A program made the position numbers and the translations under genes. A model generated the notes under the pieces. The model did not search any database. It was not told where the DNA came from and was given only the letters and a program-made list of their open reading frames with translations. DNA of 64,000 bases, taken from positions 1 to 64,000 of the forward strand of contig DASWNX010000020.1 in the NCBI GenBank assembly GCA_036399055.1, in the 5' to 3' direction. This DNA is from Jatrophihabitans sp. GTDB lineage: Bacteria; Actinomycetota; Actinomycetes; Mycobacteriales; Jatrophihabitantaceae. Positions 13,101 through 20,605 of the stretch are shown one piece after another (position 1 is the stretch's first letter; every line of letters starts with the position of its first letter).

Positions 13101-13817
13101 TCAGTCGAGGCTGACACCAGGATGATCGGCGTCCAGGGTGCACGCCGAGACCGAGTCGGCGTGCCCGGCGATCAACTCAGCAAGCGACTGCTGGGCTGAC
13201 TGCAGGACATCGTCAGGGACCGCCTCGGCCGAGATTCGCTCGATGACGAACACCACGTCGCTGGAAGCGTCATCGACCTTGGTCTGGTCGCAGTCACGAT
13301 GATTCCAGTGCCGGGTGAGCACCTGCGAGCCCAAGGCGTAGACGACTTCTCCCGGCCGAGGCTCCTCCACCACCTCGGGCTCGCCCAGCGGTGTGAAGCT
13401 GTCGCCGGCGACGGCGGTCCGGATCATCACCTCGCCGCTCAGCCGGCTCAGGTCGAACGCGCCGGCCGGCGTCCCGAAGCGGGTGGAGACGTAGTTGTAC
13501 GCGTCGACCGCGCCGTTGATCCGGGGCAGGACACCTGACTTGGCCATCCTGCGGCTGAGGGCGTCGACGCTGGAGCGGAACCGCCGTGGGTTCGTCCCGA
13601 ACTTGCGATAGGCCTCATGCCAGGACAGGATCTGCTGATCCTGCTCGCCGAACGGCGACCACGTGCCAGCTGCCAGGTCGTGTTCCAGACCGCTCAACGC
13701 CGCCTCGGACTCGGGCCACACCTTCTCGTTGCGCAGCCCCCGCGCGGTCACCAGCCTGACCTGGGCCTCGGGAAAACTCGTGCTGACATCGCGGCTGAGA
13801 GTGAAGGTCACGGGCAC
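13101..13817 (-). CDS. B3/B4 tRNA-binding domain protein
   Basis: The 238-residue protein matches the stand-alone B3/B4 family, related to the editing-site region of phenylalanyl-tRNA synthetase beta. Support comes from SWHEAYRKFGTNPRRFRSSVDALSRRM (117 or so), INGAVDAYNYVSTRFGTPAGAFDLSRLSG, GEVVYALGSQVLTRHWNHRDCDQTK and SDVVFVIERISAE. Members are thought to act on mischarged tRNA or related substrates, but evidence is limited. GTG start. It lies 28 bp downstream of the fatty acid desaturase gene in the same direction. Confidence 0.8.
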   Translation of the reverse strand: MPVTFTLSRDVSTSFPEAQVRLVTARGLRNEKVWPESEAALSGLEHDLAAGTWSPFGEQDQQILSWHEAYRKFGTNPRRFRSSVDALSRRMAKSGVLPRINGAVDAYNYVSTRFGTPAGAFDLSRLSGEVMIRTAVAGDSFTPLGEPEVVEEPRPGEVVYALGSQVLTRHWNHRDCDQTKVDDASSDVVFVIERISAEAVPDDVLQSAQQSLAELIAGHADSVSACTLDADHPGVSLD

Positions 13818-13845
13818 CCGATCATGCTAGGTCATCGTCGAAGGC

Positions 13846-14835
13846 CTACGGCTTCGCCATCCCGCTCCTGGGCGTCTCCAGCAGACGCGTGCGATAGCGC
13901 AGGCGGCGCGCGTAGCCATCGGGGTCATGCTGGACCAACGCCTCGTGCAGCTTGCGCAACGCGTGGTGCGGAACGCCCGGCCACATGTGGTGAACAGTGT
14001 GGTAGCCGTCGTTGTGCGGGTGCACTATCAGCCGTTGCCAAGCGCCCAGGTTGGAGATGGTGGCGTCGAACACGGTGTCGGTTCCGGAATAGACGTGCTC
14101 GGAGGCCTCACCGATCAACCTGACCACCGGCAGGATCACGACGAAGCTCACCAGCCAGATCAATGACCCGACCAACGCCCCTGGCAGGCCGAAGACCAGC
14201 GCCGTGGGCGCCACCGCGACCACGGTCCACAGCAGCGGAAGCAGAAGGTAGGCAGGGCTGGTGCCGAGCGAGCGGATCCAGCCCTTCTGGTAGCTGGGCA
14301 GTCGCTTGAGCAGGTCCATGGCGATGACCCGCCGCGAGTGCACCCGCAGCTCTTCCAGGCCCAACTCGATGTAGCGCTGCCGGTCGGGGTCCAGAGCCGT
14401 GCCGAACCGGCCGTGGTGCAGAAGGTGGCTGGCGCGGTAGTCGCTGATCAGCGCTCCGGTGGGCATTCCGGCGAGGATGAAGGCCAGCACGTCGTTCCAT
14501 CGCCGGTGTGAGCGGCTCCAGTTGAAATGCGAGCTCTCGTGCACAAGGCACTCCAGGGCGCGCAGCTGCCGCGCGATGGCGACCACCGCGACGGCTGAGG
14601 CGAGCACCCCGAGGATCATCGGGCCGTCCAACACCGCCCAGGTGGCCCCTGCGACCAGCAGCCACGCCACGACATGATCCACCGCCGCGAGCGCGAGGGT
14701 CAGCCCGCAGCGCGTCCGGTGCGCGTCGGCGATGATCGAGCGCATGTCCTTGGGAGGCGAGTAACCCCGGCGGTAGGCAAGAAAAGTCGTCTCCGGGCGG
14801 TCACGATCGACCACCTCGTCCTGCAACGGAAGCAT
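13846..14835 (-). CDS. membrane fatty acid desaturase-like protein
   Basis: The 329-residue integral membrane protein carries the histidine boxes of the acyl-lipid desaturase/hydroxylase superfamily: LVHESSHFNWSRSHRRWND, LLHHGR and DGYHTVHHMWPGVPHHAL, which bind the diiron centre. Hydrophobic segments lie near residues 48-90 and 180-230. It should use O2 and an electron donor to introduce a double bond or hydroxyl into a lipid or other substrate. AAGGA seven bases before the ATG is a good ribosome site. It lies between the conserved block and the ATP-grasp operon; whether it belongs to that pathway or is a house lipid enzyme is open. Confidence 0.87.
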   Translation of the reverse strand: MLPLQDEVVDRDRPETTFLAYRRGYSPPKDMRSIIADAHRTRCGLTLALAAVDHVVAWLLVAGATWAVLDGPMILGVLASAVAVVAIARQLRALECLVHESSHFNWSRSHRRWNDVLAFILAGMPTGALISDYRASHLLHHGRFGTALDPDRQRYIELGLEELRVHSRRVIAMDLLKRLPSYQKGWIRSLGTSPAYLLLPLLWTVVAVAPTALVFGLPGALVGSLIWLVSFVVILPVVRLIGEASEHVYSGTDTVFDATISNLGAWQRLIVHPHNDGYHTVHHMWPGVPHHALRKLHEALVQHDPDGYARRLRYRTRLLETPRSGMAKP

Positions 14836-14898
14836 GTCTCATTCCTTGTACTCGCGATAAATGGGGGATCCGGCTTGGAAGAGCCTTTGTGTATGAGA

Positions 14899-14928
14899 AA
14901 GATACAATCATATTAATTTACTGTCCAA
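14899..14928 (-). promoter_or_regulatory. candidate desaturase promoter
   Basis: On the minus strand TTGGAC (14928-14923), an 18-base AT-rich spacer and TATCTT (14904-14899) lie about 65 bases upstream of the desaturase ATG. The match is fair; the local AT-richness makes chance matches more likely. Confidence 0.4.
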
Positions 14929-15060
14929 GTAATAGACACAGAAAACGTCGCACATTAGGGCCTTTTATACGGCACCTTCCCTTTATGTCCGACTCGTCGG
15001 CCTGTCGACAGCCCGAGGGCGGACGTCTGGTGGACCAGTACCGCCGGTGAGGCCGCTGCG

Positions 15061-15145
15061 CCGACTGGCCGACTGGCCGACTGACGACTGGCCGACTGAC
15101 GACTGGCCGACTGGCCGACTGGCCGACTGGCCGACTGGCCGAGGC
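15061..15145. repeat. simple repeat of 8-bp ctggccga units with 11-bp variants
   Basis: About nine copies of gactggcc or gactgacgactggcc follow each other without interruption. The array is non-coding and lies about 100 bp beyond the stop of the last ATP-grasp operon gene. It is probably a slippage-prone minisatellite. Confidence 0.85.
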
Positions 15146-15248
15146 TCGCGTGCTCATCGAACATGCGACGGCGCCGCTGATCGGCAGCGGCTCGCCGCTG
15201 GCCTCTTGTGACGCCTGCGGTGAGCCGCCACGGACCGGTGCGGCCCCG

Positions 15249-16532
15249 TCAGTCGAACGGGCGCAACTTGACGTTCAGCTCCGCCTCGCACTCCAGCGCG
15301 GTCTCAACGATCGCCGCGGGGTGAGTCGCCGGGTCGTAGCGACCGCGAACCGCGAGCAGGCCGATCGGCTCGAAGCCCAGCGGCGCGGCCCAGACGTGGT
15401 CACCGCGACCGTTGATCGCGTAGTACTCCCGGAAGTTGGGATGCCGCAAGGCGTAACCGGCCGAGTTCTCCTCGATGACACCGGTGCGATAGATGAATCG
15501 GATGCACGTCGCGACCCTGCCAGGATGCCGGGCGCCGGCCATCTCCATCGCTTCTTCGGTGTCACCGAACGCTGCGGTCAAGAAGATGGCCACCAGGTCG
15601 ACCGCGTGGACGTCCCGGATGTTGCGGTAGACGTGACCGCCGCTGATCCGGGTGCTGAACTCGACGAACCGGAAGGCCCCGTCGGCGCCGCGGCGTAGTT
15701 CGGCGTTGACCAGCGCGGTCTGCAGATCCAGCGTCTGCACCAGCCTCTGCATGAGGCCGTCGACGTTGGCTTCTGCCTCAGCGTCACCGAAGGGCATGAC
15801 GTAGAGGTCTTCCTCGAAACACGGAGGATTCGGAAAGCTCTTGGTGTTGATGCCGGCCAGCACGAACTTGCCGTCGATGACGGCGCCGTCCACGGTGATC
15901 TCGTCTCCGGGCAGGTACTCCTCGATCAGTGCCCAGGTCTCGGGGAAGCCGTTGTCGTAGAAGTGCTCGGCTCCGGTGTGGGCGATGCCGCGGATCTCAT
16001 CGAGCAGTTCCCGGGCGCGCTTGGGATCATCGACCAGTTCGACGTTCGAGCTTCCCGCGCCGCGGGTCGGCTTGACCACGAAGGGCGTGCCGACCTGCGC
16101 CATCGCCGCGTCGATGTCGCTGTAGTCACCGATCCTGATGGACAACGGCGTCGGCAACCGGTGTGCCAGCAGGTGCGCTCGCTGCAGTGACTTGTCCCGT
16201 GCGATCCGGTCGGCTTCTGGCCTGCTCCAGGTGACACCGTGGCGAGCATTGGCCTGCCCCACCGACACGATGTCCATCTCATAGAACGTGACAGCGAACG
16301 GCGCCCCGGTCTTCTTCAGGGCGATCAGGATCTCTTCGGTCAGCTCGTCTGCCGACGCGCCCGGCGCCAGGATTCGCACCGAGGCGTAGCGCGGGTCGTC
16401 AAGGGTTGACTTCTCATCGGTCAGCAGGTGAATCGCCAAGCCGGCCTGGAACATCGCCTCGATGTGGTCATTGCGGATCAACAGGTAGTTGCGCAGGACC
16501 AGGACCACCGGGCGGTTGAGATAAGACTTCAC
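15249..16532 (-). CDS. ATP-grasp ligase, last gene of putative biosynthetic operon
   Basis: About 427 residues. Residues 110-310 form an ATP-grasp domain: FVVKPTRGAGSSN (151-163), ALIEEYLPGDEITVDG, and the Mg-binding ALVNAELRR and RFVEFSTRISGGH (289-301). The family couples ATP hydrolysis to amide or ester formation through an acyl-phosphate, as in L-amino-acid ligases. The C-terminal 110 residues look like an LAL C-terminal region. The GTG at 16532 overlaps the MFS stop (GTGA) and has GGAG nine bases upstream; an in-frame ATG at 16547 is possible. The substrate is unknown. With the second ATP-grasp gene it could assemble a di- or tripeptide. Confidence 0.85.
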   Translation of the reverse strand: MKSYLNRPVVLVLRNYLLIRNDHIEAMFQAGLAIHLLTDEKSTLDDPRYASVRILAPGASADELTEEILIALKKTGAPFAVTFYEMDIVSVGQANARHGVTWSRPEADRIARDKSLQRAHLLAHRLPTPLSIRIGDYSDIDAAMAQVGTPFVVKPTRGAGSSNVELVDDPKRARELLDEIRGIAHTGAEHFYDNGFPETWALIEEYLPGDEITVDGAVIDGKFVLAGINTKSFPNPPCFEEDLYVMPFGDAEAEANVDGLMQRLVQTLDLQTALVNAELRRGADGAFRFVEFSTRISGGHVYRNIRDVHAVDLVAIFLTAAFGDTEEAMEMAGARHPGRVATCIRFIYRTGVIEENSAGYALRHPNFREYYAINGRGDHVWAAPLGFEPIGLLAVRGRYDPATHPAAIVETALECEAELNVKLRPFD

Positions 16533-17773
16533 TGCGAGATTCTCCATACTGCGTAGAGGCCGACTGCGAGGGCGCAGGTGAGGACGGATGTGCCCAACCA
16601 GAGGGCGTCGTGTGAGTGAGCGAAGACGCTCATGCCGATGGCCGGCCCGAGCGAGAAACCGAGGCTCTGCGCGGTGGCGAGCAGGCCTTGGTATCGGGCC
16701 TCGGTGCCAGGGGGAGACAGCTCGGCGACGGCGGCATTGGCCACGGGGGCAAAGGCCATCTCCCCGACTGTGAAGGCGATGAACGCCACGATGATGACGG
16801 CTGCCAGCGTCACCATGGCGGCCACCACCAGGCCCGCCGTCATCAACAGGACGCCGCCGAGGATAGGCAGCACCCACGGCAACCGCCGAGTCACCGAGCT
16901 GATCGGCAGCTCGAACACGATCACCAGGAGTCCGTTCAGGGCCAGCAGCGCGCCGTAGAAGGCCGTGGAGTGGCCGTGGCTGACCAGCTGAAGCGGCAGT
17001 GTGGACTGATACTGCGCGTACACCGCCGCGACTCCGAACAGCAGCAGGCACAGCGTCCACGGCGGCAAGTGCCTCGCCGAGGACGGCGCGGGCGGCAGCG
17101 TGGCCAGCGGCTCCTCGGTGGCGGCCTCCTGCTCGCCCGTCTCCTCCAGGGCAGCGGCCAGCTCTGACTCAGGTCGCGCATGCCGCAGGCCGAGGAAGAT
17201 GAACAGGGCGCAAGCGGCGTACGCGATCGCTTCCACGATGAACAAGATGGTGTAGGACCGAGTCGCGATGACACCGGCGATGAGCGCTCCGAGAGCGGAG
17301 CCGACGTTGAGGGCAAGGCGGAAGAAGGCGAATGTAGGCACCCGGTCCGCTGGCTCGGTGTTGACGATGAGCAGGGCAGAGGCCGCCGGTGTGTAGGCCT
17401 GGGTGCACAAGGACACCGCGCACACGGCCACCACGATCAGCGCTCGGGTCGGTGAGACGACCAGCATCGCCACTGCGGCAGCCGATGCCAGCATCGACAG
17501 CACCAGGGTGGCGCGGTGGCCGATGTGATCGGCGAGCCAGCCGCCCGCGAGTGAACCCACCATGCCGGCGACGCCGATGGCGACCAGCACCGCTGGAAGC
17601 GTCTCGGTGGCGAATCCGCGGTCGGTGAGAAAGAGCGTGGCGAAGGTGGCGAAGAAGGAGCCCGTCCGGCTGATGAAGATGCCGAAGATGAGGATCCGCA
17701 CCGGCCTGGGAGTGTGCAGCACCACCTGTAACACCGAGCGAGGTACTTGCTCGCTGCTCGTGACAGAGGTCAT
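16529..17773 (-). CDS. MFS exporter in the ATP-grasp operon
   Basis: A 414-residue protein with 12 predicted hydrophobic segments, the cytoplasmic motif GGWLADHIGHRATL after helix 2, a hydrophilic central loop (HARPESELAAALEETGEQEA, about 200-225), and a second half ending LYAVWRISQ. It belongs to drug-efflux type MFS proteins. It is translationally coupled to both neighbours (ATGA at 17770-17773, GTGA at 16529-16532), so it likely exports the pathway product and may provide self-resistance. Confidence 0.88.
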   Translation of the reverse strand: MTSVTSSEQVPRSVLQVVLHTPRPVRILIFGIFISRTGSFFATFATLFLTDRGFATETLPAVLVAIGVAGMVGSLAGGWLADHIGHRATLVLSMLASAAAVAMLVVSPTRALIVVAVCAVSLCTQAYTPAASALLIVNTEPADRVPTFAFFRLALNVGSALGALIAGVIATRSYTILFIVEAIAYAACALFIFLGLRHARPESELAAALEETGEQEAATEEPLATLPPAPSSARHLPPWTLCLLLFGVAAVYAQYQSTLPLQLVSHGHSTAFYGALLALNGLLVIVFELPISSVTRRLPWVLPILGGVLLMTAGLVVAAMVTLAAVIIVAFIAFTVGEMAFAPVANAAVAELSPPGTEARYQGLLATAQSLGFSLGPAIGMSVFAHSHDALWLGTSVLTCALAVGLYAVWRISQ

Positions 17774-19005
17774 ACGGGCGGCTCACTCTGCAGGGGGGTC
17801 GACTCGACGATGACCTCGTCAGTGGCCTTGTCCAACGCCTGCAGGCAGAGTTCGCGGGTGTCGCCATGGCACACCAGCGCGGCCATTCGAGACATGTACC
17901 CGCGTGGCGGCAGCAACAGCTCCTCGTCCGGCTCGCACAGCGGGAGGAAGCTGTCCAGGCCTGCGAGGTCGCTGATCGGGCTGCCCAGACTGATCGAGTG
18001 CAGCCGCAGGTCATGGGCGGGGTAGAGGAAACGGACCGCGGCGGCGCCCTTGTCGGCGCGGCTCACATCCGGGGCCAGGCCAAGGGCCAGATCAGCCGCG
18101 GCGCCGGCCAGGTCCACGCCGTGGGCGAGCAGTCCGAGATAGGGGATGAGGTCGCCACCGAGCCGCGCGTTCAGCTCGATGATCCGCGCGCCTCGAGAAC
18201 TCAGCCGCAACTCCGTGTGGGTGACCACGTTGTTCAGCCCCGCGACGTCATGCGCGCGCTGGATGAGCTCGATGGCCTCAGCAGAAAGCTCCAGCTCCGA
18301 CCGCGGCGGGACGATGTGGCCGATCTCCTCAAAATAAGGGTCTAGGCCAGTCTCCTTCTCGGCCACCACCAGCGGTGTCACGACACCGTCATAGGTCACC
18401 GAGTCCACGCTCAGTTCCGGTCCGTCGATGTACTCCTCGATCAGGACGCCGTCGTAGCGTGAGCGCACCGTGCCGACCCGGGCCGACACGGCGTTCTCGA
18501 AAGCGGATTCGACCTGGTCGTGGCTGGTCACCATCCGGACCCCGGCGCTGCCGCCCAGGGCACGCGGCTTGAAGACGACAGGCAGGCCGATCTCGGCGAC
18601 GATGCCGCGGGCCTGCTCGACCGTGTCGGCGACACCGAACCCGATCGCGCCGACGTCGTTGCGCTGGAGCAGCGCGCGCAGCTCGCTCTTGTCCTTGACA
18701 GCCCGCACGGCCGCGACCGAGGGCCCGGGCACGTGGAGCAGCTCGGTCAACTGGGCCGACAGTTCGACGTAGCGCTCGTCGTAGGTGAGCACCCCGTCCA
18801 CGGCGCTGGTCCCGAGCCGCTCGATGACGGCAGGAAAGTCGTCGAGGTCGACGACGACCGAGTCGACGCAGTACGGCGCCTCCCAGGTCGGCGCCGATTT
18901 GTTCACCAGCACGATGTCGGCCCTTTGCGACACCGAGCGCAGCGCGTATTCGCGAAAGGCCGCTTCTCCACTGCCGATGAGCAACAGCCGCTTACGGGAA
19001 CTCAT
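17770..19005 (-). CDS. ATP-grasp ligase (L-amino-acid ligase-like)
   Basis: A 411-residue protein with a pre-ATP-grasp Rossmann-like half (MSSRKRLLLIGSGEAAFREY, residues 1-100) and an ATP-grasp domain at 105-310: PVVFKPRALGGSAGV (142-156), LIEEYIDGPELSVDSV (188-203), THTELRL and the metal-binding IIELNARLGGD (275-285). An LAL-type C-terminal domain follows. This layout is that of BacD-type dipeptide ligases and carnosine-synthase-like enzymes. It starts at an ATGA overlap with the cupin gene. Substrates cannot be inferred. Confidence 0.88.
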   Translation of the reverse strand: MSSRKRLLLIGSGEAAFREYALRSVSQRADIVLVNKSAPTWEAPYCVDSVVVDLDDFPAVIERLGTSAVDGVLTYDERYVELSAQLTELLHVPGPSVAAVRAVKDKSELRALLQRNDVGAIGFGVADTVEQARGIVAEIGLPVVFKPRALGGSAGVRMVTSHDQVESAFENAVSARVGTVRSRYDGVLIEEYIDGPELSVDSVTYDGVVTPLVVAEKETGLDPYFEEIGHIVPPRSELELSAEAIELIQRAHDVAGLNNVVTHTELRLSSRGARIIELNARLGGDLIPYLGLLAHGVDLAGAAADLALGLAPDVSRADKGAAAVRFLYPAHDLRLHSISLGSPISDLAGLDSFLPLCEPDEELLLPPRGYMSRMAALVCHGDTRELCLQALDKATDEVIVESTPLQSEPPV

Positions 19006-19364
19006 GCTCCGGGACGCTCCTCGGCGTCAAGGAACCTGGTCACCGCGGTGGCCCCGTCCTCCGGCGCGATGATGTAGCTGCATCCGTCCGGGCCAGCGGT
19101 CGAGCCGTGGACGGTGTCGGCGGGCAGCACGATCTTGGTCCGCGGGGGGCAGGTCTGCCGCCGGACGGCGCCGCTGTCCAGCCAGAAGATCTCCATGCTC
19201 CCGTCGACGACGAACAGGGTCTCGTTAAGGCTGTGCCGGTGCCAGTTGTGGGTCTTGCCCGGCTGGTCATGCTGGTACTCGAAACTTCCCTGCTGTGGCA
19301 GGAACTGAGAGATACGCTCGGCGAGTGCGACGTCGGGCTCAGTGGTGATGACAGGCGATCCCAT
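19002..19364 (-). CDS. single-domain cupin
   Basis: About 120 residues with a complete cupin metal site: H42-R-H44 and E48 in motif 1 (NWHRHSLNETLFVVDG) and H86 in motif 2 (VLPADTVHG). The fold thus has a probable three-His/one-Glu metal centre and could be an oxygenase, a rearrangement catalyst or a small-molecule binder. The ATG at 19364 is preferred because GGGAG lies seven bases before it; a GTG at 19385 that overlaps the upstream stop is the alternative. Being between an N-oxygenase-like gene and two ligases, it is probably a tailoring enzyme. Confidence 0.82.
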   Translation of the reverse strand: MGSPVITTEPDVALAERISQFLPQQGSFEYQHDQPGKTHNWHRHSLNETLFVVDGSMEIFWLDSGAVRRQTCPPRTKIVLPADTVHGSTAGPDGCSYIIAPEDGATAVTRFLDAEERPGA

Positions 19365-19381
19365 GGCTGTTCTCCCGCCCG

Positions 19382-20173
19382 TCACGCGTGGGGGCTGTCG
19401 GCCAACGACCGCCGCGCGTGTGCCATCGGGCAGCCGCGCGAGGTGTCGATCGGCTGGTTCTCGTCATCGAGGAAGTACTGGGTCCACTCCATGTTCCCCG
19501 GCTCGCCGAAGCTGCCCAGCAACGGCGTCTGCTCGACCGCGTCGTACTCGCGCAGCCGGCGGCGGATGACATTGCGGGCGCGGTCCCCGGTCGGCGTGCC
19601 TGCCTTGAGGTCGTCGAAGACGAAGCGCGGCTGAAAGGTGACCGTGAAGTACTCCGAATACCGGCTGCGGCGCTGGTGATGGTGCGGGGTGTTGGCCACC
19701 ACGAACATGGGTGTGGAGTTGAACGAGAACTCCCAGGTCGACTCTTGAGGGTCGTCAGAGATTCCCTCTGGCCACTCGCTGACGTCATTGGCCTGGACCT
19801 CGGCCAAGAGGCTCCAGAAGTGCTGGCGATACTCCTCGAGTGAGTCCACACCGGGCTCGAAATCGAAGAAGCACACCAGGGAAGTGCGGATGCCCAACGA
19901 CTCGGCGATGGCGGTGAACTCCCGCAGAGCGCTGGCCAGCGTCGCGACCCGCTGCTCTCCCGCCGGGATGAAGCTGTAGCGAAGGGTGCCTCTGCGAACG
20001 GCGTCGACTCCGAAGATGCAGGGAAAGAGAGCGTCGTCGCTCAACATGCGCTCGCGGAAGAAGTCAACCGCGAGACGTTCCCAGGTTCCAGACGGGTCCT
20101 GGTGCGGGTGCATGAGCAGTGAGGCTTGCTCACGGTCTGGGACAGACGGAACAGCGCTGGTCGAGGACTTCAT
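19382..20173 (-). CDS. YqcI/YcgG-family protein, heme N-oxygenase-like (DcsA relative)
   Basis: About 263 residues matching the YqcI/YcgG family along its length: FPCIFGVDAVRRGTLRYSFI (50-69), SLVCFFDFEPG (98-108), the STWEFSFNSTPMFVVANTP strand followed by three histidines (164-166) and RRSRY, FTVTFQPRFVFDDL (176-189), and NMEWTQYFLDDENQPID near the end. The characterised member DcsA of the D-cycloserine pathway is a heme enzyme that N-hydroxylates L-arginine; most others are unstudied. It is the first gene of the operon. The ATG at 20173 with GGAG ten bases upstream is preferred over an ATG at 20191. Arginine as substrate is inference only. Confidence 0.85.
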   Translation of the reverse strand: MKSSTSAVPSVPDREQASLLMHPHQDPSGTWERLAVDFFRERMLSDDALFPCIFGVDAVRRGTLRYSFIPAGEQRVATLASALREFTAIAESLGIRTSLVCFFDFEPGVDSLEEYRQHFWSLLAEVQANDVSEWPEGISDDPQESTWEFSFNSTPMFVVANTPHHHQRRSRYSEYFTVTFQPRFVFDDLKAGTPTGDRARNVIRRRLREYDAVEQTPLLGSFGEPGNMEWTQYFLDDENQPIDTSRGCPMAHARRSLADSPHA

Positions 20174-20605
20174 AGGTTCGGGACTCCACATCGGTTCGGT
20201 GCCGGCCGCCGGACACCAGGCGCATAAGTGCGCCGGTTAACTAATTGTCCGGATATGTGACAAATCGATCATTGATAAAGCCTCATCCGCCTACTGGCGG
20301 ATGAGGCGAACTATTACGAAGAGGCCTTAGGTACGAAAGATGAAAGCACATTGCCCGTCATTTTGGCAATTTGTGATCCGAGCAACACTGTCTGCGCCCT
20401 ATGCCTTTACTGGCTGCAGTGCGAGGAGCCCGAATTAGGGCTTTTGAATGCGAATTGGTCTTCTCATGCGGCAGCGCGCCCCGCCCGGCGCCCGACTCGT
20501 GCCTGGAGCCGGGCAGGCGGTGGCCTCACTCGCGGGGAAGGAGCGGGCTGCCCTCAGCGTGAGACCGCAACGGCCTCATCGGAGACGAGGATCACGCGGC
20601 GGCGG
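20174..20605. other. AT-richer regulatory gap between gatB and the biosynthetic operon
   Basis: About 430 non-coding bases, clearly AT-richer than the neighbours from 20235 to 20460. It holds an inverted repeat GGCGCA-TAAG-TGCGCC (20219-20234), a 12-bp perfect hairpin (20280-20307), and a third inverted repeat attgcc ... ggcaat (20350-20370). On the minus strand TTGTCA (rc of 20254-20259) could be a -35, but no convincing -10 follows. The region likely carries the operon promoter, operators and the gatCAB terminator. Confidence 0.55.
20280..20307. terminator. 12-bp perfect hairpin, likely terminator
   Basis: Arms gcctcatccgcc (20280-20291) and ggcggatgaggc (20296-20307) flank the loop tact. 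Read on the minus strand it is followed by TTTATCAATG, a weak U-tract, so it could stop transcription coming from gatCAB, whose stop is 300 bp upstream. It lies 106 bp before the start of the YqcI-like gene, so it could instead be a 5' regulatory element of that operon. Confidence 0.6.

Follow-up and report, generated by a model that had tools for sequence, protein, structure and literature searches.

A 64,000-nucleotide stretch of a Jatrophihabitans sp. genome (GenBank contig DASWNX010000020.1; below, the window) carries an operon at positions 15249 to 20173 of the minus strand. Its five packed open reading frames (ORFs) encode, in order, a YqcI/YcgG-type enzyme, a small cupin, an ATP-grasp ligase (ATP-grasp 1), a major facilitator superfamily (MFS) transporter, and a second ATP-grasp ligase (ATP-grasp 2). 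We found that the operon is a real, selected unit whose conserved core is a recurrent YqcI-cupin module. Among the loci with this module, the class of transporter shifts with the presence or absence of ligases. We suggest that the operon encodes a small secreted peptide derived from arginine, a reading in which our confidence and our doubt are about equal.

Twenty-five loci in Actinomycetota and Proteobacteria hold YqcI together with the cupin, as found by searches started from YqcI and from a cupin profile. They are the window operon, that of the congener G398, three more copies from the genus (one of them at another site in the window's genome), eleven further genomes, and loci in Nocardia alni, N. 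vaccinii, Amycolatopsis antarctica, A. pithecellobii, and Streptomyces huasconensis and on plasmids of Thioclava (two), Rhodobacteraceae SC52, and Rhodoferax antarcticus. At E 1e-12, the cupin profile matched 1, 8, and 2 foreign genomes among the 396, 250, and 295 searched (sets that may overlap). YqcI adjoins the cupin in all 11 of these genomes, a linkage test that holds for this cupin family only, the profile having been built from YqcI-linked cupins. The two proteins are encoded in one open frame at five of the 25 loci (L050, L052, L053, L099, and L112). The search from YqcI gave 25 matches in 23 of 394 genomes, and 4 of the 21 matches examined have the cupin. On plasmids, 6 of the 48 records with a YqcI match were examined, and 4 of the 6 have it. 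A preliminary description of this DNA had taken the five genes as the unit. The conserved unit is instead YqcI plus cupin, usually with a permease and no clear ligase.

Gene content and gene order are the same in the congener G398, where the operon is divided between two contigs by a break within the cupin and gatA is again found beyond YqcI. ATP-grasp 1, the MFS gene, and ATP-grasp 2 have aligned starts in the two genomes. The ratios of nonsynonymous to synonymous substitution rates between the two genomes are 0.12 for YqcI, 0.25 for ATP-grasp 1, 0.11 for ATP-grasp 2, 0.23 for the MFS gene, and 0.29 for a desaturase gene described below; the cupin, being split across two contigs in G398, was left out. 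These five genes are under purifying selection. Eight other genomes of the genus were searched for YqcI and ATP-grasp 2, and only G398 has the full gene set in the same order; a close copy of ATP-grasp 2 occurs in two of the nine genus genomes, the window's own and G398 (89% identical). In the congener G400, the flanking gatB and B3/4 genes are present and the operon is absent between them. The preliminary description had named a conserved five-gene set in unrelated actinobacteria as evidence that would support its reading. We did not find the set conserved in this way, and the exact set is rare, but the same four gene types recur, with one ATP-grasp, in S. huasconensis and in two genomes of another genus (L053, L082, and L121).

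The same description gave the five minus-strand genes their families and listed 4-bp overlaps. ORF calls and Pfam matches agree with the former, and the overlaps are exact (ATGA at 19002, ATGA at 17770, and GTGA at 16529). At the fourth junction (19382, YqcI/cupin), the genes could overlap by GTGA. However, similarity to relatives begins only with the ATG at 19364, and this ATG rather than the overlapping GTG is probably the cupin start; the gap to YqcI would then be 17 nt. The operon has a G+C content of 66.3%, versus 70.1% for the window outside 13846 to 20173. The count of five genes missed the desaturase-family gene. It lies 54 bp behind ATP-grasp 2 in G398, where its product is 73% identical, and 413 bp behind it in the window, in a gap that holds an 8-bp tandem repeat. 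Six genes is probably the better operon count. A compact pathway free of nonribosomal peptide synthetase (NRPS) and polyketide synthase genes had also been proposed, and we found none among the seven proteins scanned at 13101 to 20173.

The 25 loci fall into two types. In 20, the pair is followed by an APC-type amino acid permease, and the flanks hold no clear ATP-grasp as judged with a three-sequence profile and the available flanks, one of which is short in L029, L032, L083, L117, L118, and L144. The remaining five (the window, G398, L053, L082, and L121) have an MFS transporter and at least one ATP-grasp. The N. alni locus (L049), counted with the permease type, has a weak 15-bit ATP-grasp-like match upstream, where no Pfam domain was found at E 0.001. 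In maximum-likelihood trees of 30 YqcI and 22 cupin sequences, well-supported branches force at least two type changes. The window copy groups with the permease copies of its own genus, and the Streptomyces/G232/G775 group lies elsewhere. The YqcI tree carries long-branch warnings, the trees omit the G398 cupin (split by the contig break), and L144 and L145 are in neither the trees nor the residue table. The ligases of the two groups have little in common: the L053 ligase is 27% identical to ATP-grasp 1, that of L121 is 37% identical to ATP-grasp 2 (E 4e-7), and that of L082 has no match to either at E 1e-5. Identity among the MFS proteins is 32 to 34%. Because 20 of the 25 pairs lack a clear ATP-grasp, YqcI and the cupin seem not to need a peptide for their function. 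The joint change suggests a genomic rule in which a permease marks a free amino acid product and an MFS transporter marks a peptide product, and this rule could serve as a query for more such clusters.

APC permeases are often importers, and the pair could instead serve degradation or detoxification. In this scenario, which we consider unlikely, the permease would import arginine or a guanidine compound, YqcI would hydroxylate it, and the cupin would break down the product, for example releasing nitric oxide (NO) or hydroxyguanidine. A divergent Lrp/AsnC regulator at the Thioclava and Rhodobacteraceae copies fits such a role, as do the aldehyde or tartrate dehydrogenases near the Thioclava copies. 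However, five copies have ATP-grasp ligases and an MFS transporter, and the Rhodoferax copy is followed by a translocator of the LysE type, a family known for amino acid export.

Other features were seen at individual copies. On the Rhodoferax antarcticus plasmid (L112:6992-14624), the fused YqcI-cupin gene is followed by a permease, a weak match to a 2-oxoglutarate-Fe(II) oxygenase, and the LysE-type translocator; a gene for a Tn3-family transposase is close by. Downstream of the permease-type copy in the window's own genome (L028, contig C16, 11429-18120) are an AMP-binding enzyme and a same-strand gene run, partly common to G400 (L029) by eye, which could be a separate biosynthetic cluster. 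The YqcI of L120 (G891) lacks profile positions 155 to 217 and has Gly in the heme-cysteine column, and the adjoining cupin and permease look intact. It could be a decaying copy or a sequencing error; it is included in the locus counts and excluded from the residue counts.

The window YqcI scored 214.9 bits with PF08892 (cut-off, 27) and matched AglA of the argolaphos pathway (PDB 9uba) at E 2.6e-31 in a phmmer search. In AglA, Cys44 is the heme ligand, Arg166, Lys196, and Arg200 are partners of the heme carboxylates, and the substrate contacts include Phe152, Gln177, Arg179, Phe182, and Gln228 (PMC12866846). Cys44, F152, R166, Q177, R179, F182, R200, and Q228 correspond to C52, F157, R171, Q181, R183, F186, R204, and Q232 of the window enzyme. 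All eight residues are identical across the 22 complete module members that were aligned. At position 196, the window enzyme and the AglA chain itself have Arg, whereas three of the 22 members have Leu and one has Lys. It is quite unlikely that the pair acts on a substrate other than arginine, by chemistry unrelated to guanidine N-oxygenation. The distance to characterized members would allow this, with the AglA match above and a score of 49.5 bits against the GntA equivalog model (cut-off, 145), but the five AglA contacts to arginine (F152, Q177, R179, F182, and Q228) are kept in every one of the 22 complete members.

The contacts of AglA to its phosphonate cap differ. The positions of Ser221 and Thr222 vary, and Lys225, through which AglA binds the cap, is Glu229 in the window enzyme. 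This position is Glu in 22 of 22 module members, in all 12 enzymes from the bacterial family f21 (perhaps Frankiaceae), in the Tistrella enzyme, and in L097 and L115; L098 has Asp, and only AglA and L084 have Lys. The Glu suggests a pocket that takes arginine whose amino group is free, with free arginine as the candidate substrate. ChmN converts free arginine to mono- and dihydroxyarginine (PMC11177257) and is an experimental precedent for such hydroxylation by a YqcI-type enzyme.

The argolaphos system itself offers another order of events, in which the ligases first make an Arg peptide, YqcI hydroxylates it, and the cupin step is minor or unrelated, to give a plain hydroxyarginine peptide. 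The alp/agl cluster, whose product is a hydroxyarginine peptide, holds a PRK02186-type ATP-grasp (AlpC), a YqcI protein (AlpD), and an MFS transporter (AlpN) (PMC8976061), and AglA uses AMPn-Arg as its substrate and shows essentially no activity with free arginine (PMC12866846). However, most YqcI-cupin loci (20 of 25) have no clear ATP-grasp in their flanks, the cap-binding Lys225 is Glu in this family, and YqcI and cupin are fused in five loci. We regard this order as rather unlikely.

The window cupin (127 residues) has a cupin match only, with no attached HDO domain. H41, H43, E47, and H85 (numbered from the Gly after the ATG at 19364) form an HxHxxxE...H motif that is invariant in all 22 aligned members, a quartet common in other cupins too. 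An AlphaFold model of the protein has a mean predicted local distance difference test score of 86 and a generic cupin fold. In the f21 family, YqcI lies within 4 kb of a larger SznF-type gene at 11 of 14 loci, and within about 1 kb at 7 of these 11; L087, L100, and L101, whose contigs are short, show no SznF-type gene. In the tistrellabactin strain Tistrella mobilis KA081020-065, an SznF-type gene directly precedes YqcI. One f21 protein matches SznF at E 4e-38, and the Tistrella protein matches it at E 2e-31. The C-terminal cupins of these SznF-type proteins and the window cupin have in common HxH, an FW pair, HGS, and CxY.

We compared the two kinds of cupin, using as controls unrelated Cupin_2 proteins from the window's own genome (two of four; L132 and L135 were dropped because the script found no metal motif in them). 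The cupin-domain alignment took 8 of the 11 f21 SznF-type proteins, and one of these was compared with the PDB. With hhalign, the profiles of window-type and SznF-type cupins paired at 93.7% probability; as single sequences, an f21 domain reached 93.2%, the controls 83.4% and 58.5%, and the Tistrella domain 65.6%. The window-type profile scored eight f21 domains at 24.7 to 26.5 bits and the controls at 19.4 and 6.5 bits. In the reverse search, the 22 window-type cupins scored 1.0 to 19.5 bits (the window cupin, 12.2) and the controls 4.9 and -0.1 bits. The cupin may work like that of SznF; the sequence link between them is weak.

Both ligases (69.6 and 67.3 bits) pass the ATP-grasp_4 cut-off of 27. 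ATP-grasp 1 matched BL00235 (PDB 3vot) at E 1.3e-19 and BacD at about E 2e-18, and it scored 177 bits with PRK02186 (cut-off, 625). At the place of the metal-binding ExN motif, it reads IIELNAR, and ATP-grasp 2 reads VEFSTR, with Ser replacing Asn, as in G398. A search of the class with ATP-grasp 1 matched 39 of 394 genomes at E 1e-30, the window's own included, mostly with weaker homologues. In the 16 ATP-grasp 1 loci inspected (L030 and L033 to L047), of which L030 is a second copy in the window's own genome, there was no YqcI or cupin match. In 4 of these 16 (L038, L040, L042, and L043), the ATP-grasp 1 homologue is directly followed by an MFS homologue. Given this pairing, YqcI-cupin seems to have been combined with a ligase-transporter module. 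The desaturase scored 69.3 bits with the GntB equivalog model (cut-off, 380), and four other desaturases of the same genome gave 67.7, 51.5, and 36.2 bits and, for the fourth, no match. A guanitoxin-like pathway was rejected, as the GntA score is far under its cut-off and unrelated desaturases of the genome match GntB alike.

From the gene content, the linkage, the fusions, the active-site residues, the purifying selection, and the joint change of ligase and transporter, we infer a substrate, a cupin reaction, a product, and a direction of transport. YqcI would N-hydroxylate the guanidine of free L-arginine once or twice, as its conserved residues suggest. From the hydroxyarginine, the cupin, coupled to YqcI, would make a modified amino acid; the reaction could be a rearrangement of the SznF or hydrazine-synthase kind, giving an N-N bond. 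One or two partner acids would be ligated to this amino acid by the two ATP-grasps, a further oxidation may come from the desaturase-family enzyme, and the MFS transporter would export the peptide. In relatives without ligases, the amino acid permease would move the free amino acid. More tentatively, this could be a minimal N-N pathway free of HDO and NRPS, in which a heme N-hydroxylase and a small Glu-cupin, fused more than once into a single protein, form a convergent counterpart of SznF. Free arginine would then become an amino acid of the N-nitroso, hydrazine, or graminine-like diazeniumdiolate kind. It would leave the cell free via the permease or, after ligation by ATP-grasps, as a small metal-binding or NO-releasing peptide.

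Several observations weigh against the proposed peptide pathway. YqcI stands without this cupin in 17 of the 21 loci examined, and L097 and L115, proteins of no assigned function, have the Glu at the Lys225 position as well. The two forced type changes may be two gains or one gain and one loss, and both APC and MFS transporters may import. Against the PDB, the cupin profile found quercetinase and oxalate decarboxylase (E 2.5e-6 and up) ahead of SznF (E 0.08 to 0.1), and the fold match of the cupin model is generic. Window-type cupins have Glu where the aligned SznF-type cupins have Arg. The Tistrella SznF-type cupin scored 10.1 bits with the window-type profile, between the two controls, and the reverse search put 2 of the 22 window-type cupins below a control.

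Features of the window in and next to the operon
Feature	Position	Strand	Evidence or remark
YqcI/YcgG heme-thiolate enzyme, 263 aa	19382..20173	-	PF08892 214.9 bits; predicted arginine/guanidine N-hydroxylase
Small cupin, 127 aa	19002..19385	-	Cupin_2 22.3 bits (below 27.2 cut-off); HxHxxxE...H metal site
ATP-grasp ligase 1, 411 aa	17770..19005	-	ATP-grasp_4 69.6 bits; resembles L-amino acid ligases
MFS transporter, 414 aa	16529..17773	-	MFS_1 142.3 bits; presumed exporter
ATP-grasp ligase 2, 427 aa, GTG start	15249..16532	-	ATP-grasp_4 67.3 bits
8-bp tandem repeat, 11.8 copies	15051..15142	.	In ATP-grasp 2/desaturase gap
Fatty-acid-desaturase-family protein, probable sixth gene	13846..14835	-	FA_desaturase 108.1 bits
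Standalone B3/4 (tRNA-editing-like) protein	13101..13817	-	PF03483 94.9 bits; operon membership not supported

The B3/4 gene is not supported as a member of the operon: in G400 it occupies the same place although the operon is absent, and in G398 that place is taken by another gene; the G398 B3/4 protein (55% identical) is encoded elsewhere in that genome. B3/4 and YqcI occur in the same three of nine genus genomes (the window's own included; several of the nine are incomplete). In a genome of the same class (G010, L098:9757-11174), a B3/4 gene comes immediately after a divergent YqcI gene. CtdA, a canavanyl-tRNA-Arg deacylase of the same domain family, guards against mischarged tRNA-Arg (PMC10018355). 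By analogy, the B3/4 protein could be a self-protection factor against tRNA mischarging with hydroxyarginine. In the window, no Rfam match exceeded its gathering score, and a promoter and terminator scan gave matches no more numerous than in shuffled sequence. Visual inspection showed a 12-bp inverted repeat (4-base loop, short T-rich tail) at 20274 to 20307 on the minus strand, between gatB and YqcI. It is possibly the gatB terminator and is absent from the list of the scan tool.

The preliminary description knew of no pathway with this gene set, and we recognized none in searches of an open-licence PubMed Central library, outside which most subscription papers lie. The chemistry itself has precedents. 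Guanidine N-hydroxylases are already known in the YqcI/YcgG family, and the argolaphos system joins YqcI, ATP-grasp, and MFS. The operon is a variant of known arginine N-oxygenation chemistry, on a YqcI-cupin module that we did not find described in that literature. Iyer and colleagues described SznF-like oxygenase-cupin operons with ATP-grasps, and others with NRPS and YqcI; the accessible portion of that paper makes no mention of YqcI with a free cupin and ATP-grasps (PMC2922099). EDHA is a small hydroxyarginine siderophore whose small cluster was reported to be undetected by antiSMASH (PMC8914351).

Like the window operon, the argolaphos cluster has a YqcI N-hydroxylase, an ATP-grasp, and an MFS transporter in one cluster. 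However, it has phosphonate genes, and its gene table, in the excerpt at hand, holds no small cupin of the window's kind, AlpG being epoxidase-type. We found no phosphonate gene (phosphoenolpyruvate mutase) among the seven proteins at 13101 to 20173, the part of the genome that was searched. In the bacilysin system, the BacD-type ligase is matched by ATP-grasp 1, which an MFS gene follows, and BacE is the exporter. Bacilysin also has anticapsin genes, whereas none were seen in the window operon. The PyrN/RHS1 systems combine an N-hydroxylase with a cupin that has the same HxHxxxE..H quartet as the window cupin. In the zinc cupin PyrN, the quartet is H50, H52, E56, and H90 (PMC8664883), and ATP-grasps occur in some related operons (PMC2922099). 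Unlike the window operon, these systems have a methionyl-tRNA synthetase (MetRS)-like partner and a lysine N6-monooxygenase; no MetRS-like ligase was found among the seven proteins scanned.

The graminine systems (GrbE/GrbD and ChmN/ChmM; gramibactin, tistrellabactin, and chalkophomycin) make a C-diazeniumdiolate building block and likewise have, within one cluster, a YqcI-type arginine N-oxygenase and a cupin-bearing protein. For the latter, the accessible text describes homology to SznF for the cupin domain only (PMC9679993), and the N-N bond step to the graminine of chalkophomycin is given as not reconstituted as of 2024 (PMC11177257). The graminine systems put their amino acid into an NRPS, whereas the window operon has neither HDO nor NRPS and its ATP-grasps presumably do the assembly. 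The cupin of window-type loci also differs from theirs in being standalone or fused to YqcI. SznF, the N-nitrosating enzyme of streptozotocin biosynthesis, carries guanidine N-hydroxylation and a cupin on one polypeptide, an arrangement mirrored by the five YqcI-cupin fusions. However, the SznF hydroxylase is a diiron enzyme, whereas that of the window type is a heme-thiolate protein, and the cupin has Arg in SznF-type proteins where the window type has the Glu of HxHxxxE..H. A two-gene heme-cupin module without HDO or NRPS would be a simple system in which to test the action of a cupin on hydroxyarginine.

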